Shown here piece by piece: positions 21,400 through 64,000 of a stretch of DNA of 64,000 bases. The position numbers and the translations under genes were made by a program. Every line of letters begins with the position of its first letter. The stretch's first letter is position 1. The stretch is from Epichloe hybrida (taxonomy: Eukaryota > Ascomycota > Sordariomycetes > Hypocreales > Clavicipitaceae): positions 372,001 through 436,000 of the forward strand of contig JAFEKR010000007.1 of the NCBI GenBank assembly GCA_019022495.1. The letters run 5' to 3'. Under the pieces are notes generated by a model. That model saw nothing but the letters and a program-made list of their open reading frames with translations, ran no database searches and was not told the DNA's origin.

Positions 21400-22075
21400 C
21401 CTGCACGTCGTCGTGCCTCGAGGACGATGTTGTGATGAACACGGGCACTCGACAATGCACAATGCAGAGCGGAGACTGAATTTCCGGTCAAGGATGCAGC
21501 GCAAATGATTTACTACCAGACCTGTCGACGCGATCAAATCAAACTCCCAAGATTTCCAAGTTCCCGATTCTGCCCAAGGCGGTGGAGGTCTGGTTGCTAT
21601 ATACATATTCCGTGTATTGAATCCTTCGGACCTTCGGGTCTTGTTCGGTTCAATCGTGGCCAAAGGCCGGGACAGATATGGGTCCCTCAAACGGATGCAC
21701 GTAATTCGATTGGCTGCAGCCCCGCACCGTCGTAGTGCCCCTGCACTGCATCGCCACTGTTGCCCCGCCCCACCTTCCCGCTTTTCTCCCACTCTCTGAC
21801 CTACATGTAGCTACGTAAATACCTCTCCTTCATTACTTTTCTTAGCTCCTTAGTTATCATCAATATCAACACCTTCAACGTCGAATTCGACCCTCTTGCA
21901 CTATGCATCGTTCCTTGGTGTAACCAACACCGTGTTTTGTCCGTGTCTTACCAAGCTCTTTTAAATCGAATTCCTTGCGTTGCCGCGCAAAATGCACATC
22001 CAGGTGCCGGAATATTAACCGGCTCCCCTTTCGCCAGACGGCTCGTCAAAACGCCAGAGACAACCAAAGATCGCA
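21400..22075. other. Upstream region of the Ima1-type gene
   Basis: This contains the promoter of the minus-strand Ima1 gene. C/T-rich stretches near 21760-21960 may be the leader of the small plus-strand ORF that follows. No recognisable gene or RNA is present. Confidence 0.4.
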
Positions 22076-22312
22076 ATGCAATGGGCAATGCTCGCCAAAG
22101 GGAAAGAGCTTCATGAGAAGCTTCTTAGCGAAATACAAAAGAATGGCGACAAGTTCAAGGCATTACCTGATTATACAACCTTTTATTCGCTTCAATTCGA
22201 GATGGAGACAGAAATGCTAGCACTACGACCATGTGATTTGCTTGAGGTACTAATGATGGACCATTCTGAGAACGATTATGTCTTTATTGAGGTATTCAAT
22301 GTTAAAATATAG
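22076..22312 (+). CDS. Small hypothetical protein (78 aa)
   Basis: An ATG-started 78-codon ORF gives an acidic, helix-prone product (K-E-L-H-E-K-L-L-S-E-I-Q-K, then several Met/Leu-rich turns). Codon choice is plausible for coding DNA, but the family is not recognised and no partner exon was found. It stands alone between the Ima1 gene and a low-complexity region. It could be a remnant. Confidence 0.3.
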   Translation: MQWAMLAKGKELHEKLLSEIQKNGDKFKALPDYTTFYSLQFEMETEMLALRPCDLLEVLMMDHSENDYVFIEVFNVKI

Positions 22313-23257
22313 GACACACAGGATATTATCGAGCGAAGTTGCCCAAATCCTACCGGCATGAGAGAAGTGGACCCATCAAACGACGATTTTTTTGCTTTGT
22401 TAGGGACACAAACCTTGCCGAGACTGCTAGGCGTTTTCCGGTGTATTGGCCAGCTGTTACGATACAAAATGTATGATAAAATGGGGTGTCCGTATTTGTG
22501 ACCTTGAAGCTTGTTCCTAGGGATGACAGGGTTTATCTATTACTGCAGTCGCGATCATTAGTATGTTAATTGTTGCACTAGCCGGGTATTGCTAGTAATT
22601 TTTTTGTTCCTTGAAAATTAGATGCATTGGCCACAGCCAATGACCCCAATTTTTTTAAAAAATCAATAAATTAAATGAAGGACGAAGATGAACGGTTTGA
22701 TCAAATTGAATTGAAGGCCTTTAAATCAACGGATCAAAGATCGAGACGAAGGTTAACAAATGGATTAAATCAAAGGTCAAAGATGAAAGCAACTCGAAGG
22801 TTTGAAAATCCGACAATGGAAGCGGTGCGTAGGGGAGCTATCAGGCCTCGTCTAGTGGAAGGAGTTGGTTGGAAAGAGCTTCAGTGGGGTGTTAGTGCAG
22901 TGGGGTGTCGGTGGTGTCGGTGGTGTCGGTGGTGTCGGTGGTGTCGGTGGTGTTGGTGGTGTTGGCAAGACACGGACACAAAGTTCCGGTTGGTTGATCC
23001 GCAGCAGCACCCCCTTGCCCCCTTGCACACGCATTCCTTCTTGTCATCCCTGAATATCCTCCGAACCACCACCATGACGACCAAGGGCGGAGGGAATTCT
23101 AAATGTTGAATGAAAAGCAAATCCCACGGATTCCCTCTCCGCTCCGCCTCCCATCTCATGTGTCTGCCTACACTCTACTCCCGCTGCAAGACCACCGTCT
23201 TTTCCGGCCAATGTGAACTTCGAGCCAGATACACGACGCTCGCATCACGGCCATGAA
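22313..23257. other. Low-complexity intergenic region with minisatellite
   Basis: AT-rich DNA (22500-22800) is followed by a 9-bp minisatellite (separate entry) and the promoter/leader of the glycosyltransferase-like gene. A 144-codon ORF (22675-23109) reads through the minisatellite as repeated R-W-C triplets and is not credible as a protein. Confidence 0.45.
22904..22966 (+). repeat. 9-bp minisatellite (GGTGTCGGT)n
   Basis: Seven head-to-tail 9-bp units: five identical GGTGTCGGT, then GGTGTTGGT and GGTGTTGGC. The array is pure at the left and decays at the right, suggesting recent slippage expansion. Confidence 0.95.
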
Positions 23258-24445
23258 ATGAAGCTCCTCAAAGAAGCCGCCAGGAGCACACCGATCCACG
23301 GCGCTGCTCTTCTGCGCCGAGCGACTCGCATCACGCCCCTGCGAACCGTCCTCCTCTTCACGATTCTCCTAGCCTACGTTTTTCGGTTTTCCATCTTCGA
23401 ATACTGCGACTATGTGCGCCAGATACAGCCGTGGTCAGGGCAGCGCCAGCTCGAGCAGTCCTTCACGCCGACCAGCGCCGAATTAACCTGCTTGCATCGA
23501 GGCAGCAGCAACGCAGCCGCATCTACATCAACATCTACACCCTCCTCATCCTCCTCATCCTCCTCATCCTCGCAGGCCGATCCGATTCCCAACTTGATTC
23601 ATTTCATTTACATCTTCAAAGAGCCGCTTGCCCTACGCAAGGGCCTTCAGTTTGGTTTCCTCGAGTATCTAGCCATCCGCAGCGCCATCGTCAGCATCCA
23701 ACCCTCCTTCATCTTCTTGCACTACGCCTTTGTGCACAAAAACGGCGATGGATCGTCCAAGATGCACATGGACCCCATGTCGAATCCCTGGATCCGCAGA
23801 CTTCGCGATGACATCCTCCTCATAGAGCATCAGCTCGGCGATGTGAGGGGCAAGTCGACCTCTTATCTCGCAGACGTCATGAGTCTCCAGCTCCTGCGGG
23901 ACAATGGCGGCATCTTTCTTCATCTCAAGACGTTTTCTCTCAAGCCATTCACGACCATCATGGATCCCCCACGCTCACAGGATGTGGTTTTGGGCCACGA
24001 GGGCGGCAACCGATGGGGCTTGGGCAATGCGGCCATTGCCGCACGCAAGAACAGCACGCTGCTCCACCACTGGCTGTACGAATACGAGCACGGCAGTTCT
24101 CCAACCCAATGGAACTACGAGGGCGACTTGCTCCCCAAAAAGATGGCCGACGAGATGCCCGCGGAGGTGTGTGCATTGCCGCCAGATGCCTTCTTCTGGC
24201 CAACATGGACGTGGAACCATGTCGAGTGGATGCACGAGGAGCTGGATGGAGAGGGGGCGAAGCACTGGAAGGAGGAGATTGACAAGCACGGCGGCGCTCT
24301 CTTTGACGGGCAGCTTGCGTATCACGCTTGGGACCGCGGCAGCGCGGGCAGGCATCTGAGGGGGCTGACGCCAGATATGGTGAGGAGGAGGGACACGAGG
24401 TTCAATTTGCTGGTGAGGAGGTTTATGGAGGAAGATCTTGATTAG
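23258..24445 (+). CDS. GT32-like type II membrane glycosyltransferase homologue lacking DXD
   Basis: A 395-residue single-exon protein. A signal-anchor helix sits at about 27-47 (T-V-L-L-F-T-I-L-L-A-Y), then a Ser-rich stalk (residues 89-105) and a catalytic-like domain from about 108. The domain starts I-P-N-L-I-H-F-I-Y and includes Y-L-A-D-V-M-S-L-Q-L-L-R-D-N-G-G-I-F, so it resembles the glycosyltransferase sugar-binding (DXD) family of Golgi alpha-mannosyl/galactosyl transferases. Where active members have G-G-I-Y-L-D-x-D, this protein reads G-G-I-F-L-H-L-K (217-224), so both metal-coordinating aspartates are absent. The remainder is intact, so it may be a pseudoenzyme. The frame is open further upstream but begins with GTG at 23213; the ATG at 23258 is the first good start. 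Confidence 0.75.
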   Translation: MKLLKEAARSTPIHGAALLRRATRITPLRTVLLFTILLAYVFRFSIFEYCDYVRQIQPWSGQRQLEQSFTPTSAELTCLHRGSSNAAASTSTSTPSSSSSSSSSSQADPIPNLIHFIYIFKEPLALRKGLQFGFLEYLAIRSAIVSIQPSFIFLHYAFVHKNGDGSSKMHMDPMSNPWIRRLRDDILLIEHQLGDVRGKSTSYLADVMSLQLLRDNGGIFLHLKTFSLKPFTTIMDPPRSQDVVLGHEGGNRWGLGNAAIAARKNSTLLHHWLYEYEHGSSPTQWNYEGDLLPKKMADEMPAEVCALPPDAFFWPTWTWNHVEWMHEELDGEGAKHWKEEIDKHGGALFDGQLAYHAWDRGSAGRHLRGLTPDMVRRRDTRFNLLVRRFMEEDLD

Positions 24446-24774
24446 ACGGACTTATTCTGCCCGGCATTTGGCCGGCACGGTAACAATGGCTGGCCGATCG
24501 TTTCCTTTACACGTTTCGGTTTTAACTGGTCGAAGCTTATTAAACATTTCCGACGTCAACTGCTATTAATATTACGCGATGTGTGCTAGTCTGTCTGGTG
24601 GCAGTGTCTGGGGGTGACCATGTTAACATCGCACCCCCCCCCCCCGGCGGACCCGGCCAGACCCACCTCACCCGCCTCTTATGTACATGTACATAAGGTG
24701 TAGGGCACGAGTAACAATGGATTGGCAAGAATTATGTAATTAAGGGAAGGCACTGTCATCAACAAGCAACTACA
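24446..24774. other. Intergenic region before dsc3
   Basis: 329 bp with a poly-C run of about 14 near 24634-24647 and a palindromic TACATGTACAT near 24682-24692. This is probably the promoter of dsc3; nothing else is seen. Confidence 0.45.
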
Positions 24775-25659
24775 ATGTCACCATCCACCCATCCATCCCG
24801 CAAAGTCACGAACAATGCCATCATGACAACACCCACCGTGGCCACACCACCACTCCTCCTCACCATCCGCTTCTCAGCCTCCCTCCCAGACCTAGACCTC
24901 GACATCCCCCGGCCCCAATCCACAACCGTCCTCTCGCTCAAACACCTCCTCCGCACGCGTCTCTCCACCCGCAACCGCCTGCGCCTCATCTACCGGGGCC
25001 GCATCCTCCCCGACTCATCAGCCCTCGGCTCCGTGCTCAAACCGCCCCTCCAGCCGCCGCCGCCCTCCTCAGAGCCCGATGCCAAGGGCAAGGGCAAAGC
25101 CATCGACGGCCACGTCCCCGTCCGTATATACGTCAACTGCTCGATAGGCGATGAGCTGACGCCCGAGGAGCTGGCCGACGAGCAAGCATCTGCCTCCAGG
25201 CCGCCGGCCCGGGACGTCGCGCCCGCCGAATCCTCCAAGCCAGCCGCGAGCACCCGGCCCCGACCAACAGGCTTTGATCGCCTTCTCCAGGCCGGCTTCA
25301 CCTCGTCGGAGATATCCACCCTCCGAACGCAGTTCGCTTCCATCCAGAATGAACGGTTCGCGCCCGACTCGATGCTCTCGCCTGATTCGCTGAGACGCCT
25401 CGAAGATGCGTGGATCGACACCAACGCCGGGGAACTGCCGTCGGCGGCGAGTCCGCTGGAGGATGAGCTGAGTACCATGTCCACCGTGCTGGACGTGCTC
25501 ATCCGCGGCACCATGATTGGCTTCTTCTTCCCCCTCGGCAGCATCACCTGGTTGTTGAGGCAGGGTCTTTGGAGCGAGAAGTGGCAGATCTTCGTGGGCT
25601 CTGGCGTTGTTCTGAGCGTCACGGTCGGCATCGTCATGAGTATTTCAAGCGAGCGATGA
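24775..25659 (+). CDS. dsc3: DSC E3 ubiquitin ligase complex subunit 3
   Basis: A single-exon 294-residue protein. Residues about 25-125 form a ubiquitin-like domain (L-T-I-R-F-S-A-S-L-P, then L-R-L-I-Y-R-G-R-I-L-P-D). A Pro/Ser-rich linker precedes the second conserved block, with R-P-T-G-F-D-R-L-L-Q-A-G-F-T (162-175). Two C-terminal membrane helices follow, around G-T-M-I-G-F-F-F-P-L-G-S and F-V-G-S-G-V-V-L-S-V. This architecture is that of Dsc3, a Golgi/endosomal membrane subunit of the Dsc ligase that in fission yeast and Aspergillus is needed for proteolytic activation of the SREBP transcription factor and for quality control of membrane proteins. The gene is convergent with mtr4 downstream. 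Confidence 0.88.
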   Translation: MSPSTHPSRKVTNNAIMTTPTVATPPLLLTIRFSASLPDLDLDIPRPQSTTVLSLKHLLRTRLSTRNRLRLIYRGRILPDSSALGSVLKPPLQPPPPSSEPDAKGKGKAIDGHVPVRIYVNCSIGDELTPEELADEQASASRPPARDVAPAESSKPAASTRPRPTGFDRLLQAGFTSSEISTLRTQFASIQNERFAPDSMLSPDSLRRLEDAWIDTNAGELPSAASPLEDELSTMSTVLDVLIRGTMIGFFFPLGSITWLLRQGLWSEKWQIFVGSGVVLSVTVGIVMSISSER

Positions 25660-26028
25660 ATGGAATTGAATTGAGCAGGTACTCCTGACACGACGTCTCC
25701 CGTCTTCCTGCGCGGAGGCGCCATCTGTAGCCTTCAGGCCGTATTCATCCGCCAGAAAGTCCCCTACAGTCCAGTCCATACAATATGCATCGACGGCAGA
25801 TGACGACGGCAAATGTGACTTGTTATCAATTAGGGCACAGCGTTGTTGCATGAATGCCATTGCGCCTGATAAAGCGGGTGTCAGATATTTCCAGCCCGAC
25901 ATGTCCTCAATGATTCTCTACAAATGCCCAAAATGCGCTTTTAATACATGCCCCCCCCCCCCCCCTCTTCCACCTCCGGCAAACTCCAAACACCGACCCA
26001 CAGACAGACAAGTTCCTGCGCAATAATA
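25660..26028. other. Convergent 3' region dsc3/mtr4
   Basis: 369 bp between two stop codons. It includes a poly-C run (about 25951-25965) followed by a CT-rich tract. No gene is supported. Confidence 0.5.
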
Positions 26029-29000
26029 CTACAGGTACAAGCTCTGTGCAGCCACAATGTCTCTCCGGATCTTCTGCAAGCTCTCTTCAAACTTCTTGGT
26101 CAGGTCCTCGTTGCCCATGACCTTGGCGGCCTGGGCCATCTGGCGCAATAGCTCTTCGAGACGACGGAACAGGCGAATGAGAGAGCCTTCAAATGTATTT
26201 GTCATTTTGCTAGATCAAATTTGTTAGTTTACCCATACATTCCAAGGAAAACGTTGGGGGAAGGAAAGGTGTCTGTATCCTCAGACAACGTACCATATTT
26301 CGGAAAACGGCTTGCCCTGCGCCCACGCGTAGACCGTCTCCATCAGTTGCCACTTCAAGCTCGTGACATATTCGTCTTCGTTGACGTCCAATTTACACTC
26401 CTGGCTCACCTTGGCGACGATGCGAGCCTTGGCTTGAATTTCGCGGTACGGTCTCTGGAGATCCTCTTTGAGGGCCTGCGTCTCCACCTTTTCATCAAAG
26501 ATGAAGCAACTCAGCACGGCGGCACATGTCTCGGGTGTAAGTTCGTTGAAGAATCGATCGAGCAAGAGTTCGGATAGCAGGAGCTCGTGGCCCTCGGTGG
26601 AGGAGATCTCGCAGGCTACGCGGGCCTTGAGCTGGACGACTTCGGCTTCGTTGATGAAACCTAGTCGTCGAAGCACTCGTTTCCTCGATTTGAGTTCATC
26701 CATCTGCGCGATGCTGTGTGCCTTGGCAATTGCCTTCTTCTTCTCCTTGATCTTGTCTCCGAGCCGGACCTTCTCACTGTATTCGTCCCACAATGAGGGA
26801 AGCATGGGTGACATATGCAGAGGGTTTGCCAGTAGTCTCGACTCTAAAACTTCAATCTTGCGCAGCAGCTTCTTGAAAGAGTCATCCGTGATGCACATAT
26901 TCTCCAGCGGATCCAAGATGGGGATGCCGTCGGGGAACCGTCTCCTGACCTCGGCTAACGCCTTGCGCGCCTGGTCTCGGTCGCTCTGTGCGTTCAAACC
27001 CGCACTGGGCATGAAGATGCGAATCTGGCTGATGGCCTTCATGCAAGTGAGCAGACACGGCACGACAACGGTAACGCTGTCTCCGTCGCTGCCTGCAGGC
27101 TTTACACCAGGGGGCATATCTCCAGCAGGTGGGCCAGGAGTGAACGCCGGGCTTGACGCAGAGATTGTGAGCAGGACGTCGATGAAGTAAGATTCTTGTG
27201 GCTCATGCTCCGGCTCGCCGAGTCTAGGGGCACGACGAGATTGGTGATTGACAATCACACCCCATCCAAAATCCAGACCTCCTGCGGCATTGTCTTGGGC
27301 CTCCTTGGGGTTGTAAATCTGCACCAAGCGGCCCGGCTGCAAGAACTCGAGACAGTGGCTCGGGTGCTGAATGACGCAGCGCATGTCCTTGGTGTAGGTG
27401 TTGAGTTGTTGTCGAATCTGGTAGTAGTCCTTGATTGTCGCCTCGTCGGGAATTGAGAGGCCGTCTCGTTCCTGCTGCAAGGCCATGAGCTCCTTCTCGA
27501 GTGAAGGCACACTCGCAGCATTCTGGAACTGATGAAAACATCTTTCCAGCATGTACTCGGGGGAGATGGCCTCAATGCGCAGCAGGTTCAGAATCATGTT
27601 GTAGCCCAAGTAGAAGGCAGAGTTAAGTTTGTCTTGGTGGCCGGTCACAATTTCCTTGGCAGTATCCGGCTCCAGCTTATCGTCAATCATCATGATAACG
27701 ATACCTCGGGCATCGAGACCACGACGTCCTGCACGACCAGCCATCTGGATATACTCGGAAGACGTAAGAGGGCGACGCTTGACGCCATCCCACTTGGTCA
27801 CTTGCGTGAAGACGACAGTTTTGGCAGGCATATTAAGACCGATGGAGAAGGTTTCCGTCGCGAACAAGACCTTGATTAGGGACTCTTGGAACAAAATCTC
27901 AATGGTCTCCTTCAGAATCGGCAGCAAGCCGGAATGATGGACGCCGATTCCTTTGACCAGCAAGGGCAAAAGATTCTTAATCTGGGGTAGATCTCTGTCT
28001 TGTTCCGAGAGAGACTCAATGGCACTCTGGAACACTTTGGTAACCATGGCCTTTTCCGAGTCATCATTGAAAGAGAGTGCCTGAACACTGATCGCCATGT
28101 TCTCGCATTCTCGCTTGCTGAAGTTGAAGACGATGACAGGATTGAAATTCTTCCTGATGGTCATGCGAATAATTTTATGCATATCGGAACCACCTTCATC
28201 TGCGCCTCCCTTGTTTGTTTTCTTATTTTTTCCCTTGCCCTTGAGCTTGGCGGTTATGTCGTTAGACTCGGCACCCTTCTTTTCTTCAACCTCCTTCATG
28301 ACAATGTTGAAATTCTGTTCGTTGAAGTTACCCTTCTCATCCACCACAATGCGAGCACCACTTCCTCCCGATGGGAAGAAGTAGTTCTGCAGAGGAGTCG
28401 GTCGAAAATCGGTGTATACAACATGGCAAGCTTGGTGGTGGATCTTGGCGATCCATTCGGCAAACTGGAAGGCGTTGGGAATGGTGGCCGACAGAAAGAC
28501 GTATCGAACCTTGTCTGGAAGCATAATGATTGTTTCCTCCCAGACCACACCTCTTGTCTTGTCTCTCATGTAGTGGATTTCGTCGAATATGACCCAAGCC
28601 ACTTCTCGCATAATCTCAGAACCGCGGTACAACATGGATCGCAGAATTTCCGTCGTCATAACCAAGCAGCTCGCAGTAGGATTGATCGTGACATCACCAG
28701 TCATTAAGCCAACGTCGCCAAATATGGCCTCGAAGTCTCGATACTTCTGATTGCTAAGTGCCTTGATCGGACTCGTGTAAATGACCCTCTGGTTGCGTTT
28801 CAAGCACTGCGCAACTGCATACTCGGCCACGACCGTCTTGCCGGCAGACGTGTGCGCTGAAACCAGCACGCTCTCATCCCTTTCAATAGACGCCACCGAA
28901 AGACTCTGAAAGGGATCCAATTTGAAATCCCACGTCCTCGCAGGCTCTTCTGGTGATTTATGTTCAGACAAGGGGACGTATTCGTAGTCCAGATCCGGTG

Positions 29001-29403
29001 GCAACGCAACCTGATGCTGAATATTATGCGAGAGAACTAGTGAAGCATCTTGGGGCACCAGAGTAGCTGCTCCCGCAACTTCTCTCGACTGCGCGGTTTC
29101 GAACGTGTCCGTCATGACAGGACCAGCATCATCTTCCTTCTTCCTTCTCTTCTTATCTTGCTGACTGGGGGTATCGGATCCCTCATCCTCGGACTCTTCG
29201 GCCTTTGAAGTCTCCGTGACATTGTCCATATCCGCATCAGTCCCATCCTTTCTTGTTTCCGCGGGCGCTTTTCCGTTCATCGCTTCATCGGCCTTTCGCT
29301 TCTTGCTCTTGTCGCGGTTCCGACTATTTCGGTTTTCTCCCTCCGAATCGCTGGCACTTTGGGGCTCCGCCTTGCCCTCGAACACATCAAACATCTCATC
29401 CAT
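26029..29403 (-). CDS. mtr4: ATP-dependent RNA helicase Mtr4/Dob1 (exosome cofactor)
   Basis: Exons 29403-26294 and 26209-26029 give 1096 residues. The 84-nt intron (GTACGT...TCTAG) lies near the 3' end and restores F-S-E-I-C-K-M-T-N; the last exon encodes the conserved tail ending A-A-Q-S-L-Y-L. The N-terminus (1-110) is acidic/basic low complexity. Walker A is S-A-H-T-S-A-G-K-T (182-190), motif II D-E-I-H (274-277), S-A-T near 305, and motif VI Q-M-A-G-R-A-G-R-R-G near 560. Arch and helical-bundle (DSHCT) regions follow. Mtr4 is the Ski2-like 3'-5' helicase that feeds rRNA processing intermediates and TRAMP-tagged nuclear RNAs to the exosome. Length is close to yeast Mtr4 (1073). Confidence 0.97.
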
Positions 29404-30015
29404 GTTGGCGTTGATCGTGTTGTGGACCGTGGTTCAAAGGCAGTGCTGTACGTGGCTCTCGCCCAGAGCTACAACTGTACGTCGAGAGAAGACAACAATA
29501 GACGCGATATAAGGTGAATCGCAACGCTTCTGTATGGGAACCAAAGACGTCAATGTTCAAGCGCACACATCAATGCTGGGAAGTTGCAATGCGTTCGTGT
29601 GCACACTCTCCTGACCAAGCAAAGATTGTGCGCGGTGGGCAAATCGGCGATCCGTAAGGCAAAATCTTGGCTGGTCGGCCGGCAGAAAGAAAAATAAAGG
29701 GTCGAGAAATGCAGGCGGTGAGTTACCGCCACGGCACGTCCGGGTCTCCGTAGCAAGTTCTGTACCGAAGTGAACCCGCAAGGCAAAGCTCGGACCCCAG
29801 CAATTTTGTTGGTAAAAGCATCATCACGTGATCAGGAGAGCCTCGTGCATCTTGACCTCGAACCCAAACCCATCATCGTAACCTCGATGGTCCATCACGA
29901 CGCTGACAAGTGCTCAAAGATCCCCATTCGCGATAAAATCGTCCTCAAGGTTCGGCTCGCCCCCGAAACTCAATCCGCATCCCGCGCAAAGCTGATCGAC
30001 CCTCAATTGGTACAG
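29404..30015. other. Divergent promoter region mtr4/cox8
   Basis: 612 bp between divergent start codons. The cox8 frame is open upstream to 29770 but lacks coding character. It contains a TCACGTGA palindrome (separate entry). No further gene is seen. Confidence 0.5.
29824..29831. promoter_or_regulatory. TCACGTGA palindrome upstream of cox8
   Basis: A perfect 8-bp E-box/CDEI-type palindrome 185 bp upstream of the cox8 start. In fungi, bHLH factors such as Cbf1 bind TCACGTG; use here is inferred from sequence and position only. Confidence 0.35.
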
Positions 30016-52077: not shown

Positions 52078-54573
52078 TTATACGCCTGCTGTCGGAGCCC
52101 CGCTCCCGGTTTTCCGCGCTTGCTCCAGCTCCGTATCAATGTTCCAAGGATCCCAGAAATCTCCCATTTCACGAACCATGTCTTCGATCATATCCATAGG
52201 CTCTTCAGAGCCCCGGTCGCAGATCGGGCCATCTATCCATTCATCCCCGCCGCTAGATCTTGGTTGTGGTGCGTCAGTCGTGTCGTCATCGTAAATTGCT
52301 GAGTCTGCTGCTGACAAACTTTCAGCTGTGGCAGTTGGCCTAAGAATAGGTGATTTTTGTGGTGAACCAGTGGGAACATGTCTCGTTTTCCCGTTGCCTG
52401 CACGATTTGCGATAGCTTCAAAATGTTTCAAAAATTTGTCATCACAACTTATTGGAAGGTCACTCATTGGTGTCTCTGGAGGCGGAGAGCTTTGTCGCTT
52501 GGATGGATTGATGGTAGACGCCGCCACTCTAACATGATATTGGCCGCTAGAACCATCGAGTTCAGTAAGTGGTGCCGCCCAAGAAACTCGGAGGTTCGGG
52601 CGGCGTTGGCTCCATCGGCCTTTCAAAACTGACGGAAATGAGCCTTGGCCACCTGGGGCCGCGGCTCTACAGGCTGAAGGCCGCGAGGAACTTTTCTGTG
52701 GTTGGTCTGGTGAAGGCGACATGAAGAATGCGAAAGGCTTGGAGCAAAACCGAGGTTCCGGCGTCCTTGGCCGATGTTGCGTTTCCCTTGGTTTGGTGGA
52801 GCCGTCACGTTCTGTATTTCCATCGCCCGAGCTGTGAGGATGATCGATTTCGGAACCCAGATCTGTTTGCGGTGCCCTCGGACTTTGATGCGATGGGGTG
52901 ACGAGGGATGTAGAATCGCAATCCTGTACATGGCGATTCGAAGCAACTTTGACATGGCCCTCCATCGGTTTGAACGGGCTCTGACTATCACTTATACTAG
53001 CAGAGCCTTCAACCTCCGTTTGTCTTGAAGAGCAGTCGCTGTTGCTAGCTTCATAACTGTCACGGCTTGCTGAGTCTAGACTCGGATTTTTTTCAGTCGA
53101 GGGCTTATTGACTTTTTCAAGCTTGCTAGCCGTGGCTGACTCGACCCCAAAGGTGCCTTGGTTCGAATCCTGCACGTGAAAGGTACATCCAAGGGCCGAT
53201 GGCGGGCACACTGAAGTAAAATGCGACGGTCCTTTCCACGAGCTGGATGGCACAAATCGATTCCAAATGTTCCTGAAGCTGAATTCGGCTGCCTCCTTTC
53301 GGGCAGAAGCTGGTGGCGAAGTTACCGACAGGGACATTGTGTGATTTTCTGGTGCTGATTCTGCATCCCGATCTGGGTTGGCGACAGGAATGGCAGAAGC
53401 TTTTGGCAATTCATCGGGGAAATCTTGTTGCGCCGGTTCCTGCACGGCGAGTTCGTCTCCGTCCGTCCGAGCCGGGACATCTCCAAGAGCATCCGCTACT
53501 GGTATCACGGGGGTCCTTGAGTCTCTGTCTGTCTTTTCTTTAGACATGACGCAGACGTCATCTTTCACACATTCATTTCGGCGGACATCCAGTTCATCTG
53601 AGAGTTGAAATTTTCTCCCCACGTGACGTAAATGAGATGGCGTTAATTGAGCTGCCGCTGATTGGGGCACTCCGTTTGAATGATGTTTGGCATCTATGGA
53701 AGACGGCAATCGGGGTGCATTGTGCAAAGAGACAGGAGACGAGAGAGTAGCAGCAGCACCTTCGCTAGGGCTAAGCTCGTCATCAGACTCTGCTATTATC
53801 TTGATCTTAGAGCTTCTTATATAACTTCTCGGGAATTGTTGTTTCGAAGGTGAGCCAAGTGATCTAGCGTCGTCGAAGCTGAACGACGGCATGTCCGTCA
53901 TGAGTTCATCGAGATCGTTTTCCTGAGATGTCTGATTTCCTCGATTTTGCTGTACATCGGACCTGCGTCTCTTGACCGACACCTTCTTTAGCCACTCAGA
54001 CCCGCTGGCTCGTCGCTTCTTTACAGGGGGGGACAAATCACAGTTGTGCCCTCTCCAGAAGCTATCGTGATTATTGGATGACTGATCGGCCTTTTGCTGC
54101 CACCTCCTCACTGTTTGAAACTTTTCTGTCCCCAGAAACGGATGCTGTTGAGTGTACGGAGCCTGCTTAAGACTCTCTGGACTTGGAAGATGACACTCGT
54201 TGGCAGGGGGAGAAAAGAACGTTTCCTGGCTGCGTCGAATCGTGGTAGAGCTTTGGCTTCGTCGGGCAGCGCGTTTTTGGAGTCGGGATGTTTCTATGTT
54301 TTGCCTCATGATAGCCTTGTTGCGTTTGGACATCCATGGATTGACCCATCCCAAGGAACGATCGAATGGTCCCTCTAAAGAGGCCGACATAATTGATGGA
54401 ACATGACCATTGAGAAACCGTTGCCCGGCTTCTTCGTATCGAAGCGGTCTATCAGCTGCATCATCGTAGCCTTCGTCTTCCGAGCCTTCGTAGAATACAC
54501 CGTGTCCATCGCAACACGATTCAGAGTAAATGGTATCATTACCGCTCCATTTTCCATGGGTCTTTCCGGACAT
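52078..54573 (-). CDS. Large disordered protein, conserved-hypothetical type
   Basis: A single exon of 831 residues. Most of the protein is Ser/Pro/Asp-rich and predicted disordered. A basic cluster P-P-V-K-K-R-R-A-S and K-V-S-V-K-R-R-R-S (about 190-215) suggests nuclear location. More structured-looking patches are F-S-F-R-N-I-W-N-R-F-V-P-S-S-S-W (about 440), L-R-V-S-W-A-A-P-L-T (about 675) and an acidic amphipathic C-terminus, D-M-I-E-D-M-V-R-E-M-G-D-F-W-D-P-W. I do not recognise a family with confidence. The GTG-started extension upstream is discarded in favour of the ATG at 54573. It shares a divergent promoter with the truncated Cdc11-like gene. Confidence 0.7.
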   Translation of the reverse strand: MSGKTHGKWSGNDTIYSESCCDGHGVFYEGSEDEGYDDAADRPLRYEEAGQRFLNGHVPSIMSASLEGPFDRSLGWVNPWMSKRNKAIMRQNIETSRLQKRAARRSQSSTTIRRSQETFFSPPANECHLPSPESLKQAPYTQQHPFLGTEKFQTVRRWQQKADQSSNNHDSFWRGHNCDLSPPVKKRRASGSEWLKKVSVKRRRSDVQQNRGNQTSQENDLDELMTDMPSFSFDDARSLGSPSKQQFPRSYIRSSKIKIIAESDDELSPSEGAAATLSSPVSLHNAPRLPSSIDAKHHSNGVPQSAAAQLTPSHLRHVGRKFQLSDELDVRRNECVKDDVCVMSKEKTDRDSRTPVIPVADALGDVPARTDGDELAVQEPAQQDFPDELPKASAIPVANPDRDAESAPENHTMSLSVTSPPASARKEAAEFSFRNIWNRFVPSSSWKGPSHFTSVCPPSALGCTFHVQDSNQGTFGVESATASKLEKVNKPSTEKNPSLDSASRDSYEASNSDCSSRQTEVEGSASISDSQSPFKPMEGHVKVASNRHVQDCDSTSLVTPSHQSPRAPQTDLGSEIDHPHSSGDGNTERDGSTKPRETQHRPRTPEPRFCSKPFAFFMSPSPDQPQKSSSRPSACRAAAPGGQGSFPSVLKGRWSQRRPNLRVSWAAPLTELDGSSGQYHVRVAASTINPSKRQSSPPPETPMSDLPISCDDKFLKHFEAIANRAGNGKTRHVPTGSPQKSPILRPTATAESLSAADSAIYDDDTTDAPQPRSSGGDEWIDGPICDRGSEEPMDMIEDMVREMGDFWDPWNIDTELEQARKTGSGAPTAGV

Positions 54574-55365
54574 TGCATTCCCTACTGCCACGCGGTGAAC
54601 CGAAGAGACGGAACTTCAGTCAACACATTAGCAAGGTAATATGGGGGAATGCGTTGATATCGAATCTCCAGTTGTATGAAATGTCAGTTGAGATCATTCG
54701 GCTTGCTGGGTTTTCGACAAGGTCTTTTGCCAAAATTTGATCAGGCTCAAATTGACACGAAACGCGTCTCGCCAAGGCACGTGATGTCACGTAAATTGGG
54801 TAATTCGTACGAGGCATAATTTCCATGCAACAGCATCTTCACAGCCTACGACGTAACCAAAGAAGTTAAAAATGTGGAATGCTACCTATTTTTAAAAGTA
54901 GAAAATTTATAAGGTTTTTTTCAACATCGCCCGAATCGAGATACTGCGTTTCTCTCTGAATTTGAGGTTCAGTCACGACTCATCACGTGACTGGGTTTTC
55001 CAGTAGCTCGTTGGCTAGGCGACAACCTTTCGCCAATCATGCGAACTAGTGTGTTTACCTGATGTCCTGCCATCACACACGCGCCATGCACACGGCGATA
55101 CAATTTTATTTTTGAGACTGAAATATTCCTAAACTATCCTCGCATATCTGAGAGCTCAACACCGGTTCATAAGTCTCCTTAATCACCAGTTCCCCTTTCA
55201 AATAAGCCTGCTCTCCTCTGGAACAGCGCATCATAAAACAACAACCCGTCTACGGCGTCCATACAACCCCGCCACGACCAACGATTGCCAAACGCGCCCG
55301 AATTGATGGCGTCTTAACACAGTTTATCCTACTCGTCATTCGATCTGAGCCTCACGAGTGCGGTC
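54574..55365. other. Divergent promoter region with two CACGTG sites
   Basis: About 790 bp. CACGTGA occurs at 54778-54784 and the full TCACGTGA palindrome at 54983-54990. AT-rich segments lie at 54865-54925 and around 55105. No gene is seen. Confidence 0.45.
54983..54990. promoter_or_regulatory. TCACGTGA palindrome in a divergent promoter
   Basis: A perfect E-box-type palindrome, accompanied by a second CACGTGA 200 bp away. Candidate bHLH/Cbf1-type site; inferred from motif only. Confidence 0.3.
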
Positions 55366-58300
55366 ATGGCACCTGCTTGGCTCGATTCCCTCTCCGAGGA
55401 CTGGGTGTCGCAACCTGGATCTGATGCTTCTGACGGGCAGCTACCTCCACTTCCTCCAGATGAAGTAGAAACTCCACAAATACGACAATTTCCCAGCCGT
55501 ATTCCGCGGAAATCGGGGTGTCAATCGTCGGCTCCTCCGACGAGTAGCAACGGCCCCATCGTTTTGAGTGAGCGAAGCGCCAATGACATCAATATTTCAA
55601 TGCGAAGACTACCTTCGAAGCTGTCGCAAGAGGTCAAACCCGATACGTCGCGCTCTGTTTCGAACGGGACCAATGGCTCAGTTGTTCATAACAGCCTGGT
55701 CAGTCAACAATCTCCCAGCAAAGATGGTCAGACACCGGAATGGAGGAAGCGACTGGTCCATGGCGATGTGCCATATGGCGAGCAGCGAGACCTGTTTTCT
55801 TCTGCCGCGGTTGGACTTCAAGACATGTTTAGGCCTCCCCCAGAGGGCGAGGAAGATTTACGAATTGATGGTGGAATACCGCATCACACTGACATGACCC
55901 TACCATCGAGTCCTCCGACCTATCCGTTTCCAATCACTGAAGACGACTTGGAAGAATATGAGGGGCTTGATGAGGGGGAGGAATACCCTATCGATGTTAC
56001 TCCTAGTCCCAGCCCTAGACGCTTGCAAAGGGAGATGAAATACAAGTTGAACGAAAGCTCACCGATTCCCGATGGTCGCAACACCAACTTGCCCGCAGGC
56101 GACCACAGCCCGGTCCACCAGCATCAGGACGAGATTTATCCAGACGAAAGCAGCTTGACGGCGCCACCTGGGAATGAAGGCAAGCCGAGGAAAATCAGCG
56201 GCCAGAGTGATACGCGTAATGAAGACTTTAGCCCCATCATGATTGGGAAGCACAGCGGCGAAAATGGCAACGTTGATTTTGCGCCGATTGAAGTGCCAGT
56301 AGATCAGCTTTGGCAAAAACTCGAGCGCCTGCGTATCAATCAGATGCTTCTCGACTCGCAGGCAGATCTGCAGACGGGCTTCGATACCAGCCCCAGCAAA
56401 CCTTCTGGTGATGCCGAAACGACCGAAGACTACATTCATCACGGAGGTTTCATTAATGTTCGTCGGGGTGGGAGGTCAGGCGATGGCTCGTTCTACAACA
56501 GGGGCCTCAGCTCAGAAATGGGTGTTGATACATCAGAAATGCTTCCGGAAGAGTCACTACAAGCCAGCACACCAAAAGAATTCCCTTCCGTAAGAACGCT
56601 TGGTCCCAATCCAGATCCCACCTTTCAGGTTCTACGAAGTCCTTCTTTGCCTCGGGCACCATTTCCTAGTCCTGAAAAGAAACAGGCCGCGTCTAGGAAT
56701 GACCAGCCGTCGGCAACCAGCCCCTTGAAACTTTTCGGCCCTTATGATACATTCACCAATCAGACCTTGCTGAGGAGAATCAGCCAATTCGAGGAGGTGT
56801 CCGCAAGCCCATCAGAGCGGTCAAGAATATCAAATGATGCTGACCAAACCGAATCTGGCACCAACGCCGCAGGTGCATCCATCTCTGGATCGAGAAATCT
56901 GAGCAAATTTGGAGAGAATGATTTGGACGGCTTCGAATTTAGCGGCAACGTATCCGGCAAAATTTATGAGGATTCTGACGCAGTCGGCAAAGAGAACATT
57001 GCGCCCAAAGAAGTTTCGCCGCCATTATATCCATTGCGAGGATTCGGAGGTCGAGGGGATTCGCCAGAAGGTTACTCAGGTTTAGTCATCGAGCGCAAGC
57101 ACAGCAAAGATGAGACTCCATCCAGAAAAAATGAGGAAGGTTTAATTGAAAGTTTAATTCTACCTAATGATGCACCGAACAACTCAGAAACGCCGAGAAG
57201 GGATCCCGGCTCCGAGGGTAAGCGACTAAGAACATCCCCCTCCAAAGACCCGACGCCGAAAAGACGAAGGACTCTGCACCATTCAGACATCGCCTTTGGC
57301 TGCGAGAAAAAGATGCAAGGAGTTGATGCTGCCCATTTGCAGATGCAATCGCTCTTATCGGGCAAGAAACGCAAGGACGCGTTGTCCGGCAGCTTCGAAA
57401 CAGCTAATTCTGAAGTTCTCGCCAAGAGGTCCATCCTGAAACCGCAAAGTCCAGGTTCCAGCCGAAGTCCATCCTCGTCGTACAATCAACTCAAAAAGTC
57501 TCCTCTTCGAGCACTGCAAAAGGGCGATGATGTCGCCTTTCGTGATGCAGCGACTGAAACGGATCGTAAGCCATCCATCCGTACACAGGACTTTGTTGAC
57601 CAAGCCGCACAAATCATGGCAATGATACGAAACCAAGTCAAACCTGGCTTGGCGAGCTTGGAGGAGTCCGAGGAGGAAATCGAAGGAGGCGAAAGACTTG
57701 CCTCGGATGCTGATTCTTACCAAGATTCCACCAATGAACCCTTTTCCCGGCCTCCGAGTCGGGAAGGCAATCCAACGCCGTGGGTCCAACAGCATCAGGA
57801 TGACCCGGAACTAATAAGTCGATTGAAGAAATACCAAGAATTAAGCGACATGGGCGATGTCATTACCTCCTCAGTACGATCTATCAACCTGACCAAGGAT
57901 TCCGCCTCGGCAGAAAAAAAAATGGAGCGACAGATGGAGCGAAGGAATCAAGAGCGGCCTGACGATCTTCCAATCCCCATCTTGGGCGACGTCATCAGCG
58001 ATTTGCCCAACGTGCGAATCACTAGTAGTCGATCTGATATAGAGCAGCCATGTCTCGACCGAGATTATCCGTCAAACTCATCGAACCGCTCCACCAGCCA
58101 GACCTATCCATCTGCTTCGTCTAGGGGGTCAGAGTCCAGGCGTACGATCATGCCTGAGAGCATCTCCCATCTTATTCCGGACAGGGTGGGGAGCATGTGC
58201 CTTGATAAGGATAACAATGTCTGGATTAAACGCAAGGAGTCCAAAGAGCTGCTCGTGCACAATGTTCTCCCGTCCGAGGACAGCGAGGATGACCCTTTTG

Positions 58301-58455
58301 CTAGCATCCCAGATCTCTCGGTCGATATGACAAAGGAGATGCAAAATCTCAGGCTTGCCACGGCCGCACAAAATGCCGAAAAAGACGGCGACTCCCAGCG
58401 ATGCGGAACGCTCGCTTGGCCATCAGTTCGAATAAGCGCTCCGAATACGATATGA
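55366..58455 (+). CDS. N-terminal half of a septation-network scaffold (Cdc11/Nud1/SnaD-like), truncated
   Basis: An open frame of 1029 codons from the ATG at 55366. The opening A-W-L-D-S-L-S-E-D-W-V-S-Q-P and the block T-P-E-W-R-K-R-L-V-H-G-D-V-P-Y-G, then D-L-F-S, together with G-P-Y-D-T-F-T-N-Q-T-L-L-R-R-I-S-Q-F and G-S-M-C-L-D-K-D-N-N-V-W-I-K, fit the disordered N-terminal half of the Cdc11/Nud1/SnaD family as I remember it; this is recognition from memory, not a search. These proteins scaffold the septation initiation/mitotic exit network at the spindle pole body and end in leucine-rich repeats. Here no LRR follows: after M-T-K-E-M-Q-N-L the frame runs about 20 more residues and then reads out-of-frame Dicer DNA (last about 25 codons) before stopping. 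Confidence 0.65.
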   Translation: MAPAWLDSLSEDWVSQPGSDASDGQLPPLPPDEVETPQIRQFPSRIPRKSGCQSSAPPTSSNGPIVLSERSANDINISMRRLPSKLSQEVKPDTSRSVSNGTNGSVVHNSLVSQQSPSKDGQTPEWRKRLVHGDVPYGEQRDLFSSAAVGLQDMFRPPPEGEEDLRIDGGIPHHTDMTLPSSPPTYPFPITEDDLEEYEGLDEGEEYPIDVTPSPSPRRLQREMKYKLNESSPIPDGRNTNLPAGDHSPVHQHQDEIYPDESSLTAPPGNEGKPRKISGQSDTRNEDFSPIMIGKHSGENGNVDFAPIEVPVDQLWQKLERLRINQMLLDSQADLQTGFDTSPSKPSGDAETTEDYIHHGGFINVRRGGRSGDGSFYNRGLSSEMGVDTSEMLPEESLQASTPKEFPSVRTLGPNPDPTFQVLRSPSLPRAPFPSPEKKQAASRNDQPSATSPLKLFGPYDTFTNQTLLRRISQFEEVSASPSERSRISNDADQTESGTNAAGASISGSRNLSKFGENDLDGFEFSGNVSGKIYEDSDAVGKENIAPKEVSPPLYPLRGFGGRGDSPEGYSGLVIERKHSKDETPSRKNEEGLIESLILPNDAPNNSETPRRDPGSEGKRLRTSPSKDPTPKRRRTLHHSDIAFGCEKKMQGVDAAHLQMQSLLSGKKRKDALSGSFETANSEVLAKRSILKPQSPGSSRSPSSSYNQLKKSPLRALQKGDDVAFRDAATETDRKPSIRTQDFVDQAAQIMAMIRNQVKPGLASLEESEEEIEGGERLASDADSYQDSTNEPFSRPPSREGNPTPWVQQHQDDPELISRLKKYQELSDMGDVITSSVRSINLTKDSASAEKKMERQMERRNQERPDDLPIPILGDVISDLPNVRITSSRSDIEQPCLDRDYPSNSSNRSTSQTYPSASSRGSESRRTIMPESISHLIPDRVGSMCLDKDNNVWIKRKESKELLVHNVLPSEDSEDDPFASIPDLSVDMTKEMQNLRLATAAQNAEKDGDSQRCGTLAWPSVRISAPNTI

Positions 58456-60825
58456 GGATCAAATCTGATAGATGGTCGCACACTGGACTCCCGACGGATC
58501 TGTTCGCTACCATTGTAAGGATAGATGGCTCCATCCTTGCAGGAAAACACGGTCGGCACATTTGTCTGCTGACTCGCTTTATACTTCCCCAACTGGCACC
58601 CATTGACCTCTACGTGGACCACACCCGAAAGACGAATGCCGTGCTAGTTGCGTGCAGCACACCTATGAAAGTAAGCGAAAATGAATTGGAACTTTTGTCA
58701 AAGTTCACCAAGACCATATTCAGAGATGTTTTCAGCAAAGAATATGACTGCATGGCGCACGCGCTTCCTTACTTTATAGCTCCTTGCGCGTCGGATTCAG
58801 ACTCGACAACGGTTGAAGTTGACACCCGGGCCGTCATTGACTGGCCACTCCTTGCCATTGCGAGCGCGGCAGAAGTCGATGCTACCTTGACTGCTAGCCG
58901 CGCCGAGGATTCCCAGAACAAATTCGTGATTGACCCCTGGGATGGATCTCGCAAGTTTGTGACACGAACCGTGGCCAAGACCCTTGGCCCATTCGACCCT
59001 GTGCCCGCCGGTGTCCCGGTTCCAAAGAGCCGCGGCTACCTCCGGGTGGAACAGAACATCGCCGAATACAGTAACAGCTTGAGTCTTCCAGCAAGACTTC
59101 GAAGGAAATGGAACCCGGAGCAGCCTGTGTTTCATGCCGACTTATTACCAATTCGGCGAAACTTTCTTTGCCCGCCACGCGACGAGAAAGAAAAGTGTAG
59201 AGAATGTTTCATCATTCTCGAGCCTTTGGTTGTTTCTCAAGTAAGCCTGGATTTTTTCCATCATGACTCCGAGACATCAAGACGCTAACGACACAAAGCT
59301 ACCCGGAGACGTTGTCATGACAGCACTTGCCCTCCCTGTTATCATGTATCGGATCGACTCTGTATTAATCTCAGTTGATGCCTGCCGACTTCTTGACCTC
59401 GACATTGACGCGAGGCTTGCGCTGGAAGCATTTACAAAGGACAGCTCCAATACCGAGGAGCATGGTCAACAGCAAGTAGACTTTCAGCCAGGCATGGGAA
59501 ACAATTACGAGCGGCTGGAGTTTCTTGGCGACGCATTTCTCAAAATGGCAACCACAATCTCTCTATTCACACGAATACCAAAGACTACTGAGTTTGAGTA
59601 CCATGTTGAGCGTATGTTGCTCATATGTAACAAAAATCTATTTAATCACGCCGTGGATCGTAAGCTCCAAGGATACATTCGATCGAAAGCCTTCGATCGA
59701 CGAACTTGGTACCCCGACATGAAGCTGAAGAAAGGCAAGGCTCCCAAAACCAAGGTCGTCCACAGTCTTGCCGACAAGTCCATTGCCGATGTGTGCGAGG
59801 CTGTCATTGGCGCTGCTTACATGTCTGAACCAGAGGGCACAATGGACCTTGCCGTCAAGGCTGTGACTAAGATGGTCAGGAGCAAGAACCACGCAATGAC
59901 AAGATTCGATGACTATTACAAAGAATACCATGTCCCCGAGTGGCAGAGTGCTGCGGCATCGGCCACAGAAAGGTTCGCCGCCGAAAAGGTTCACAAGCGC
60001 ATCGGCTACAGGTTCAACCACCCAAAGCTCCTGCGGAGTGCTTTCAAGCACCCATCGTACCCATACGAAGCTGATATTCCTCACTATCAACGGTTGGAGT
60101 TCCTCGGCGATGCGTTGCTTGATCTCGCAGCTGTGGACTATCTGTACAGGAAGTTCCCGACGGCTGACCCTCAGTGGCTGACGGAGCACAAAATGGCCAT
60201 GATATCAAACCACTTCTTTGCTTGTCTCTGCGTAGAGCTCGGCTTGCACAGACATCTACTGACGACTGGGTCCTCCATGATTGGCAAGAATGCCCATTTC
60301 GCGGAACAACTAGAGCAAGCCAAGGCGGAATCATCGCGGGCGAGGAGTGATGGTCAGCCAAGCCTGGACTTTTGGGTGAGTCTCGTGCAGCCCCCAAAAG
60401 CTCTTTCGGATGTCTTGGAGGCCGTCGTTGGCGCAATGTTTGTGGACGCCAAGTACAATTACCGGGTCGTCCACGACTTCTTCACCAGGTTCATAAGTCC
60501 CTACTTTGCAGACATGGCACTATACGACACATATGCCGCGGGACATCCAGTGACGGTCCTGACCAAGCTCATGCAGGACGTCTTCGGCTGCCGCTCCTGG
60601 AGGCTTTGCGTGTCCACTGTTCCCCGTGGCTCCGAAGAAGGAGCCTCTGCGCTGACAGAGGAGAATGTCGTGTGTGCGATGATGGTGCACGGGAAGGTAG
60701 TGGGCAGCCAGATCCGGACGAACGGACGAGATGCCAAGGTAGATGTGGCGACGAAAGTGGTGCGACAGGTGCGGCACATGTCCAAGGAGACATTCCGGGC
60801 AGCAATGGGATGTGAGTGCGCATAA
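58401..60825 (+). CDS. dcl1: C-terminal half of Dicer (Dcl1-like): PAZ-region, RNase IIIa, RNase IIIb, dsRBD; 5' end missing
   Basis: Exons 58401-59240 and 59299-60825 (58-nt intron, GTAAGC...GCTAAC...AAAG) encode 788 residues starting M-R-N-A-R-L-A-I-S-S-N-K; Dicer-like sequence begins about four codons earlier (L-P-A). The platform/PAZ-like region includes F-V-I-D-P-W-D-G-S-R-K-F. RNase IIIa has E-R-L-E-F-L-G-D-A-F-L-K and D-V-C-E-A-V-I-G-A-A-Y. RNase IIIb has Q-R-L-E-F-L-G-D-A-L-L-D and D-V-L-E-A-V-V-G-A-M-F. The C-terminal dsRBD ends M-G-C-E-C. All acidic catalytic positions are present and the frame is clean. Helicase and DUF283 parts, normally about 700-800 residues upstream, are absent: the DNA there belongs to the Cdc11-like gene in another frame. 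Full Dicer makes small RNAs for silencing. Confidence 0.88.
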
Positions 60826-62051: not shown

Positions 62052-63101
62052 TCACAAGATTGGCAGCGAAATCTTATTGTCCCAGTCCACATTCTTCTCG
62101 TAGCACTCGACTCGCTCGCGACAAGTGCCGAAGATGCGGTCCCAAAGTCGCGTCTGCTTGCCGTAGTTGGCGCTGCTCTTCCAGCCCTTTCTGTGGTGCA
62201 AGTCGTGATCCTCAATGATGAGCTCGGCCTTGAAGAAGCGCAGGATAAAGTTGAAGGGGTTGGGTGGCGTGGCGACAATGCGGAGACCGCTGTGGCCGGC
62301 AAGTTCAGCAAAGACGACGTACTGGTGGCAAACCCACCATTCGTAGAAGCCCATAGGTAAGCCCATGAATTTCATGGTGAAGTAGGTGATGACGGGGATG
62401 CCAGCGATGTCGAAGAGTTCCTGCTCGAAATCGGCGTACAGTGTTAACAAGGGGTTAGGGTGCTTGGTCAGATGATGAGTGCGGTGGAACTTCCACAGGC
62501 CGTCGACGTCATGCATCAGCCTATGGTACCAGTAGAACCAGAAGTCAAGAATAATTCCGTACAGGCCGATTTCGAGGAATAGCCAGTAGAAGTTCATGGT
62601 GGAGGGCGTCTGGGAAACGCTGTATGATAGAAAAATGGTGAAGATTGGTCGGAATGTTGACGTCGCGATAAGGGATTTCAGAACCTTGAAGACACTGGTA
62701 TCGGGAACACCGTCGCGCTCGTGGACGTCGCCGTCGAGGAAGCCCGTCTTGTGGCCGAGTTCTCGCAGAATATTCAGCTCTCGGATGGCCTTGATCTTGA
62801 ACGCAGCGCTATAGAGGAGAACAGCTTGCCAGGCCGTCAGATTGTGGCCCGTGTACACGACGTACAGGTGGTGCAGAGCGATGGGAATGAAGGCGTGGGC
62901 GAGAATGAAGCGATGCTGGTAGAAGTCGTTCAAGAACGGAACGGCATCGGACTTTTGATGTACGGGCACATCTCTGTTCAGATCGCTCGGGTGGATGGAG
63001 AAGATTTCGTAGAACCAGTGGAAGACACCCCACTCGGAGCGGTCCTTCTGACGCCACGTCGACTTGATCGAGTCCTTGGGCTTCGGCTGGGTTGAACTCA
63101 T
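62052..63101 (-). CDS. Fatty acid hydroxylase/sterol desaturase superfamily protein
   Basis: A single exon of 349 residues. The di-iron histidine clusters are H-R-L-M-H (193-197), H-R-T-H-H (206-210), A-G-H-S-G (His270) and H-D-L-H-H (299-303), the superfamily pattern. Several membrane helices are present (about 65-105, 150-190, 235-265). Members are ER-embedded oxygenases acting on sterols, sphingoid bases or alkyl lipids. It is not closely like ERG25 or ERG3 by eye, so the substrate is unassigned. The protein lacks an N-terminal cytochrome b5 domain. The ATG at 63101 is the first in frame. Confidence 0.88.
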   Translation of the reverse strand: MSSTQPKPKDSIKSTWRQKDRSEWGVFHWFYEIFSIHPSDLNRDVPVHQKSDAVPFLNDFYQHRFILAHAFIPIALHHLYVVYTGHNLTAWQAVLLYSAAFKIKAIRELNILRELGHKTGFLDGDVHERDGVPDTSVFKVLKSLIATSTFRPIFTIFLSYSVSQTPSTMNFYWLFLEIGLYGIILDFWFYWYHRLMHDVDGLWKFHRTHHLTKHPNPLLTLYADFEQELFDIAGIPVITYFTMKFMGLPMGFYEWWVCHQYVVFAELAGHSGLRIVATPPNPFNFILRFFKAELIIEDHDLHHRKGWKSSANYGKQTRLWDRIFGTCRERVECYEKNVDWDNKISLPIL

Positions 63102-64000
63102 GGTGGGAGAGTTGGCGCTTGCGTTTCAGAAGATGAGAATGATGTATTCCAGGTTGTGGGTGGAAACAGGTAAGCAGCAACCGAAGCGCTTGTACAGGCG
63201 GCTGGAAGGTTGAAATAAATATAAAAGGTTTGGTTTACATTCAGGAGTGTGGCGAAGTAGGGATGGCATCATCGCCTCCCATCTATTTGTACATGAAGCC
63301 GATGGGCAACAATGAGATCATCACATGCCTCGCCCCCCGACTTGCCGCCGGCATGTGAAACACCCTGCATACATATGGCGTGGCGCATGACGACGTGGGT
63401 TGCGCGTTTCTAATTTTGCCCGTGTTGGCGAATATGAGAAAAGTCTCCGTATGTGCATGTGCTCCAGGTTGCCATGAATGGCCAGGAGCGTGGCCAGAAG
63501 CGTGGCCAGAAGCGTGGCCAGCCCGAGAATTCTGGGGGAGGGAGGCCCGGAGGTGGACGGCCGGTCACGATGCTGGCGTGCCAGTTGGACTCGCCACTTT
63601 TGCCCGATTGGGAAGTGGGAAGTGGGAAGTGGGATCAGGACGGAGAAACGGGTGATCCATTCGAGGCCGAGCCTTTTTGGTGGCAAAGACGGGTTGGTGC
63701 ATTTGCGTGGACCCGCCGGCCCCGTCGTGTTGTTTGCATGTGGTGTTGTTTGGTGTTGTGTTTGATGTGTGTTGATGTATGTTGATTGTGTCGATTGTGT
63801 CGATTGTGACGATGAGCAATGAATGACCCCTGTTCTGGGGGTTGCATCATGGATGTCTTTGAGTGCGGCGACTTCGAGGGACACGCGTCGACGAACCTGA
63901 TTGACTCGTCAGCTCATGGTCAACGGTGAGAGATGCGTGTCCAAACCTCGGCGCTGGTCCATCAGAATCAGAAGACAAATCTGCATCCAGCCAGCCTCCA
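63102..64000. other. Upstream region of the hydroxylase gene with tandem repeats
   Basis: About 900 bp of likely promoter sequence to the window edge. It holds several short tandem arrays: AGCGTGGCCAGA (about 63487-63521), GGGAAGT (about 63608-63632) and TTGTGTCGA (about 63785-63808). The ORFs reading through them are mutually overlapping and not credible. Confidence 0.5.
63487..63521 (+). repeat. 12-bp tandem repeat (AGCGTGGCCAGA)3
   Basis: Three near-perfect copies of a 12-bp unit in the region upstream of the hydroxylase gene. Confidence 0.85.

Follow-up and report, generated by a model that had tools for sequence, protein, structure and literature searches.

The window analysed here, a stretch of 64,000 nucleotides (C124:372001-436000; the assembly has 156 contigs and 79,862,988 bases), contains a point at which half of a gene for the Cdc11/Nud1 scaffold of the septation initiation network is directly followed by half of a gene for Dicer-like protein 1 (DCL1). 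The reciprocal junction occurs on other contigs. Both joints, an uncut copy of each gene and the out-of-frame state of both fusions can be read directly from the assembly. We consider it very probable, from sequence comparison, that these are the products of a balanced reciprocal translocation in a fungus carrying two sets of genes, which would very probably be the allodiploid Epichloë hybrida Lp1. The original prediction had left a choice between a translocation, an inversion or a deletion cutting two genes, or a mis-join; the reciprocal joint speaks for the first and makes the last very unlikely. The label "B" is used for the cut copy of cdc11 and of DCL1 and asserts no common parental species.

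The joint in the window (joint 1) is at 58390-58394, where five bases (GACTC) are common to both parent loci (C69:2655061-2655065 and, reversed, C116:83517-83513). The 50 bases to its left are 92% identical to C69 and 32% identical to C116; the 50 bases to its right are 98% identical to C116 and 22% identical to C69. When the window is compared to C116 by BLASTN, the match begins at 58390, and there is nothing to the left of that. A search with window positions 54700-58500 against the whole genome gave three places: the region itself, C69 (92%, ending at query base 3695) and C116 (96%, beginning at query base 3691). The switch is abrupt, and its position is not the predicted one (about 58375). 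The predicted reading frames were both verified: the Cdc11/Nud1-like ORF is open from 55366 to 58455 (1029 codons plus the stop), and the Dicer sequence LPAMRNARLA begins at 58392 in a different frame. Alignments match the left side to P0001, a full-length relative of cdc11/nud1, and the right side to DCL1 from E. bromicola (P0121).

The region left of the joint (55366-58389, forward strand) codes for residues 1-1008 of about 1794 of the B copy of cdc11/nud1. C124:427245-430394 is 95.2% identical to C69:2651940-2655065. The ORF continues through DCL1 sequence as an out-of-frame tail (58395-58455, forward strand), as seen from the ORF and a residue comparison. No Pfam family was assigned to the 55366 ORF at E <= 0.001, and the C-terminal LRR domain of Cdc11/Nud1 was not found in it. 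Its relatives carry the same name and have the LRRs in the C-terminal half, whereas the protein encoded here is severed before them; the best LRR stretches of P0001 are residues 1343-1498, which agrees with a scaffold piece devoid of its LRR half. LRRs are present in the half of cdc11 on C72 (see below) and in a whole second cdc11 on C69 (1786 codons). Because this whole copy exists, harm to septation through a compromised scaffold is unsupported. Cell division is presumably covered by the intact C69 gene.

The region right of the joint is the 3' part of DCL1, encoded on the forward strand. Its first exon piece (58392-59240) has 283 codons, begins at about residue 730 of 1520 and was identified by protein match. 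An intron (59241-59298, GT...AG) is likely from the sequence and from protein matches on both sides. The last exon (59299-60825; domain search and protein match) contains two RNase III domains (59509-59826 and 60088-60450) and a dsRNA-binding domain (about 60523-60762). For the piece at 58392-59240, no Pfam family was found at E <= 0.001, only a Dicer_platform match below the cutoff. The full DCL1 set comprises DEAD/helicase C, Dicer_dimer, two RNase III domains and the dsRNA-binding domain. The window has only the two RNase III domains and the dsRNA-binding domain; the rest is on C72. As predicted, the Dicer piece is devoid of helicase and Dicer_dimer/DUF283, for which the best stretches of P0121 are residues 96-265, 444-563 and 642-728. 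It is best regarded as a family fragment rather than a working member. Many relatives are named DCL1, and the gene described here differs from them in being split, with the helicase/DUF283 half and the RNase III/dsRNA-binding half on two contigs. Two stops in TBLASTN results for DCL1 on C124 were considered as defects of the 3' part and rejected: they are not to the right of the joint, and the frame from 58392 is open up to the intron.

It has practically no probability that the 55366 ORF is a complete protein which normally neighbours a short Dicer, so that there was no break. The ORF is indeed long and ends in a stop codon. However, the listed relatives of the C69 cdc11 copy (best 120 of 800) have 1668-1950 residues, even though lengths from 0.55 of the query were allowed. 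The listed DCL1 relatives (best 120 of 983) have 1394-2020 residues, in a search that could not return proteins under about 836 residues. In addition, the homeologs are located on different contigs, and the 30-kb stretches that were compared do not match each other at the DNA level. With full-length relatives and with homeologs on separate contigs, this reading was rejected in favour of two broken genes.

If two genes had been cut, a reciprocal product and intact copies of each gene might be found elsewhere in the genome, as the original prediction had pointed out, and both are present. In a genome search, second copies of the DCL1 5' half from C116 were found on C72 and C109, starting at C116:83515. 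On both contigs, this half (helicase/DUF283) is joined to the 3' LRR half of cdc11, which is collinear with C69 from 2655067. Uncut cdc11 is on C69 and uncut DCL1 is on C116, the latter frame-shifted as assembled. Joint 2 is at C72:939338-939340, with 2-3 bases in common. Both joints use the same bases (2655065 and 2655067 on C69; 83517 and 83515 on C116), and by our count the products have a net loss of ~6 bp relative to the inputs. Both fusions are out of frame, with 19 alien residues behind the cdc11 part and 21 behind the Dicer part, followed by stops.

The flanks agree with an exchange between two chromosomes. The left side can be assigned to its original chromosome by an 845-residue ORF left of cdc11 (52078-54615, reverse strand), which is collinear with C69:2648806-2651340, and the right side by a fatty acid hydroxylase gene right of DCL1 (62052-63125, reverse strand), which is collinear with C116:78491-79555. 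On C124, the sequence left of the joint tracks C69 over 6.4 kb, with another C69 match 37 kb out (C124:391025-393588 equals C69:2548277-2550836), and the sequence right of the joint tracks C116 over 10 kb. On C72, the left side tracks C69 over 15 kb, and the right side tracks C116 via the DCL1 5' half and past a 7.8-kb block to a kinase gene 21 kb on (C116:97738, C72:960689 and C109:210670).

Fusion of two half genes by an assembly mis-join or a chimeric long read has to be weighed, as Lp1 is a combined Nanopore/Illumina/454 MaSuRCA assembly according to the available part of PMC7922272, an intact B-type cdc11 does exist (P0001, see below), and there is a haplotype switch or a converted tract at the end of C72. 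There, C72:1019514-1024513 is 100% identical to C116:133722-138721, C109:147031-151881 is 93% and 87% identical, and at least 862 adjoining bases are identical in all three contigs. The assembly thus contains at least one haplotype (phase) switch or one tract of gene conversion. A chimeric read or a false overlap, however, would not also produce the exact reciprocal joint on another contig, and a mis-join is rejected because this joint exists. Moreover, only 5 bp are in common at the joint, compared to the at least 862 identical bases (C72, C116 and C109) that precede the switch at the end of C72, and an uncut B copy of cdc11 or DCL1 was not found in the assembly. We consider a mis-join very unlikely. 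C72 and C109 probably overlap and may have reads in common, and joint 2 is therefore not proven twice independently. C109 lacks several stretches of C72 (the longest of about 306 bp), but otherwise the pieces are 99.9-100% identical; for this reason, a segmental duplication as the cause of the presence of joint 2 on both was set aside in favour of probable overlap of the contigs. Such flaws of the assembly (the end of C72 and the gaps of C109) would not yield matching reciprocal joints.

The genome appears to carry two gene sets, because domains are mostly paired. RNase III domains were found by a genome domain search in paired homeologous loci (C124/C116, C135/C73 and C107/C91), while the 6 matches to Argonaute domains and the 145 matches to kinase domains (for which 119 of 504 candidates were scored) are largely paired with similar scores. 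For the genes compared, the second copy is ~94-97% identical. For the cdc11 halves, dS between copies is 0.097 and 0.105; the DCL1 3' exons give 0.129 and 0.150, and the DCL1 5' exons give 0.180, 0.112 and 0.104 (the DCL1 exon limits being taken from protein matches). Across all seven pieces measured, dS is thus 0.10-0.18, with a dN/dS of 0.11-0.41, which suggests a single divergence of homeologs and purifying selection in the past. Epichloë hybrida Lp1 is described, in the available part of PMC3945203, as a diploid, asexual hybrid that has a single nucleus per cell and has lost few genes. The present genome resembles this allodiploid asexual Epichloë, in which both parental copies are mostly kept and few homeologs are lost. 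As a difference, clustered deletions are reported in that part of the publication; translocations are not mentioned anywhere in its text.

The uncut arrangement exists in the copies on C69 and C116 and in P0001, and the listed relatives are full length. P0001, from a public sample (source "lgn"), is an intact B-type cdc11, which differs in 3 of 1009 residues from the half in the window and in 3 of 784 from the half on C72 (in total 6 of 1793 compared residues), compared to about 6% from the C69 copy. Because the intact P0001 nearly matches both halves, the uncut state of cdc11 is apparently the ancestral one, and the cut seems to be a recent, derived change. P0001 would count against a translocation if its sample were the same strain. 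It is unlikely, though less so than a mis-join, that a real translocation predates the hybrid and was inherited from the haploid parent of the B set. The event is not directly dated relative to hybridisation, Epichloë genomes are strongly rearranged between species (available part of PMC9318876), and, compared to C116 and to DCL1 of E. bromicola, the DCL1 5' half on C72 already has an in-frame deletion of 27 codons (at C72:940432-940433, between the helicase domains). However, neither cdc11 nor DCL1 would be whole in a haploid that carried this break. The near identity of P0001 to the cdc11 halves also argues against an origin before hybridisation, as does the finding that no stop or frameshift was gained in either cdc11 half or in the DCL1 3' half. 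An origin after hybridisation is argued because the second gene set would have buffered the event.

We propose that the B copies of cdc11 and DCL1 each suffered one double-strand break, after codons ~1008 and ~730, respectively; in DCL1, this is just past the DUF283/Dicer_dimer domain. The ends would then have been rejoined crosswise by end joining, with a microhomology of 5 bp at joint 1 and of 2-3 bp at joint 2, and ~6 bp would have been lost on balance. The predicted products are two truncated proteins, a Cdc11 without LRRs and a Dicer helicase-DUF283 part without RNase III. The 3' halves of cdc11 and DCL1 would be separated from their own promoters, both B genes would be null, and the cell would rely on the C69 copy of cdc11. 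The chance of at least five shared bases at a random joint is 0.0046, and that of at least two is 0.16. The shared bases could stem from microhomology-mediated end joining and are also compatible with classical NHEJ.

No repeat was seen at joint 1, as originally stated for repeats and transposons: self-BLAST of the surrounding 11 kb gave only one 41-bp repeat pair, ~3 kb off. Nor was an AT-rich block seen at this joint, the GC content being 0.52 within 500 bases. A transposon or repeat at the joint was therefore rejected; the AT-rich block on C72 is 2.6 kb from joint 2. This is the 7.8-kb block mentioned above (C72:941962-949724, 30% GC); it has no counterpart on C116 and is separated by ~390 bp from the DCL1 5' half, upstream of which it lies. 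AT-rich blocks (24-39% GC in windows of 500-1000 bases) are present in the window, on C72 and on C69 (C69:2615-2625 kb is AT-rich), and such blocks have been described for Epichloë genomes in the available part of PMC9318876. Further left in the window, 21930-24590 (C124:393930-396590) is in forward and 24752-29478 (C124:396752-401478) in reversed orientation relative to C69, with collinearity again from 51978, 6.4 kb left of the joint. Judged by this comparison, the change in order and orientation at 21930-52000 is a second rearrangement; this difference between C124 and C69 is a point against the proposed translocation. Positions 22560-22675 contain a dispersed element of ~105 bp with mostly 85-91% identical copies on many contigs (40 of 751 candidates scored), possibly a miniature transposon.

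The state of the uncut DCL1 homeolog determines if any whole DCL1 is left. At C116:84420-85460, in the helicase part, this copy differs from C72 by three frame-shifting changes in length (4, 1 and 1 bases), in a stretch over which the frame of E. bromicola DCL1 is uninterrupted. Among the matches listed, E. bromicola DCL1 is the closest named one, with 95% identity to the uncut copy when the latter is read with X at the breaks. Two of the three differences are in two-base runs and could be sequencing errors, while the 4-base difference is harder to explain in this way. In five C69-linked coding alignments (14.4 kb), all eight length differences are multiples of three. Three of the five C116-linked alignments (8.4 kb, partly non-coding) hold differences which are not (the DCL1 5' part with 4, 1 and 1; the other two with 13, 1, 1 and 2 and with 1, respectively). 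The three differences in C116 DCL1 might thus be assembly errors, and because other C116-linked alignments also hold such differences, this copy is probably, but not certainly, broken. Should all three be genuine, the genome would be without a whole DCL1. A helicase-less Dicer had originally been predicted. The window piece does lack the helicase, but it is out of frame behind cdc11, and with the uncut C116 copy frame-shifted as assembled, the harm may exceed what had been proposed.

A second Dicer gene, presumably DCL2, has a frame on C135 that is open for 1279 residues, while its partner (C73:619644-622970) has a premature stop. Among the listed DCL1 relatives, one is named as Sms-3 Dicer. 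The main role of Sms-3 Dicer/DCL1 is in meiotic silencing, and an asexual lineage could dispense with DCL1. We tentatively suggest, as a possibility that we do not quite favour, that the hybrid has lost all DCL1, one homeolog through severing by a translocation that took place in the hybrid nucleus, the other through the frame shifts in the helicase part. RNA silencing might then be eroding to a single Dicer gene, with one copy of that gene also carrying a premature stop, as meiotic silencing is no longer needed.

This kind of event is already known, and the present case is a new instance; a description of this joint was not found in the literature searched. As in other balanced reciprocal translocations with gene breakage by MMEJ or NHEJ, both joints are at the same nucleotides with a few bp of microhomology, ~6 bp are lost and the flanks match the uncut copies. 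There is no difference in mechanism, but both breaks are in coding exons and in GC-rich DNA. In contrast, most rearrangements lie in AT-rich repeats according to the available part of an Epichloë survey (PMC9318876).

The case provides, at base resolution, the joints of a balanced translocation that arose naturally, and apparently recently, in a very probably clonal allodiploid fungus. It indicates that chromosome breaks in Epichloë need not sit in AT-rich repeats and that breaks through genes may persist when a second gene set is present. Should the C116 copy be dead as well, a studied grass endophyte would be a natural DCL1-null, and the need for DCL1 in asexual fungi would be directly testable.
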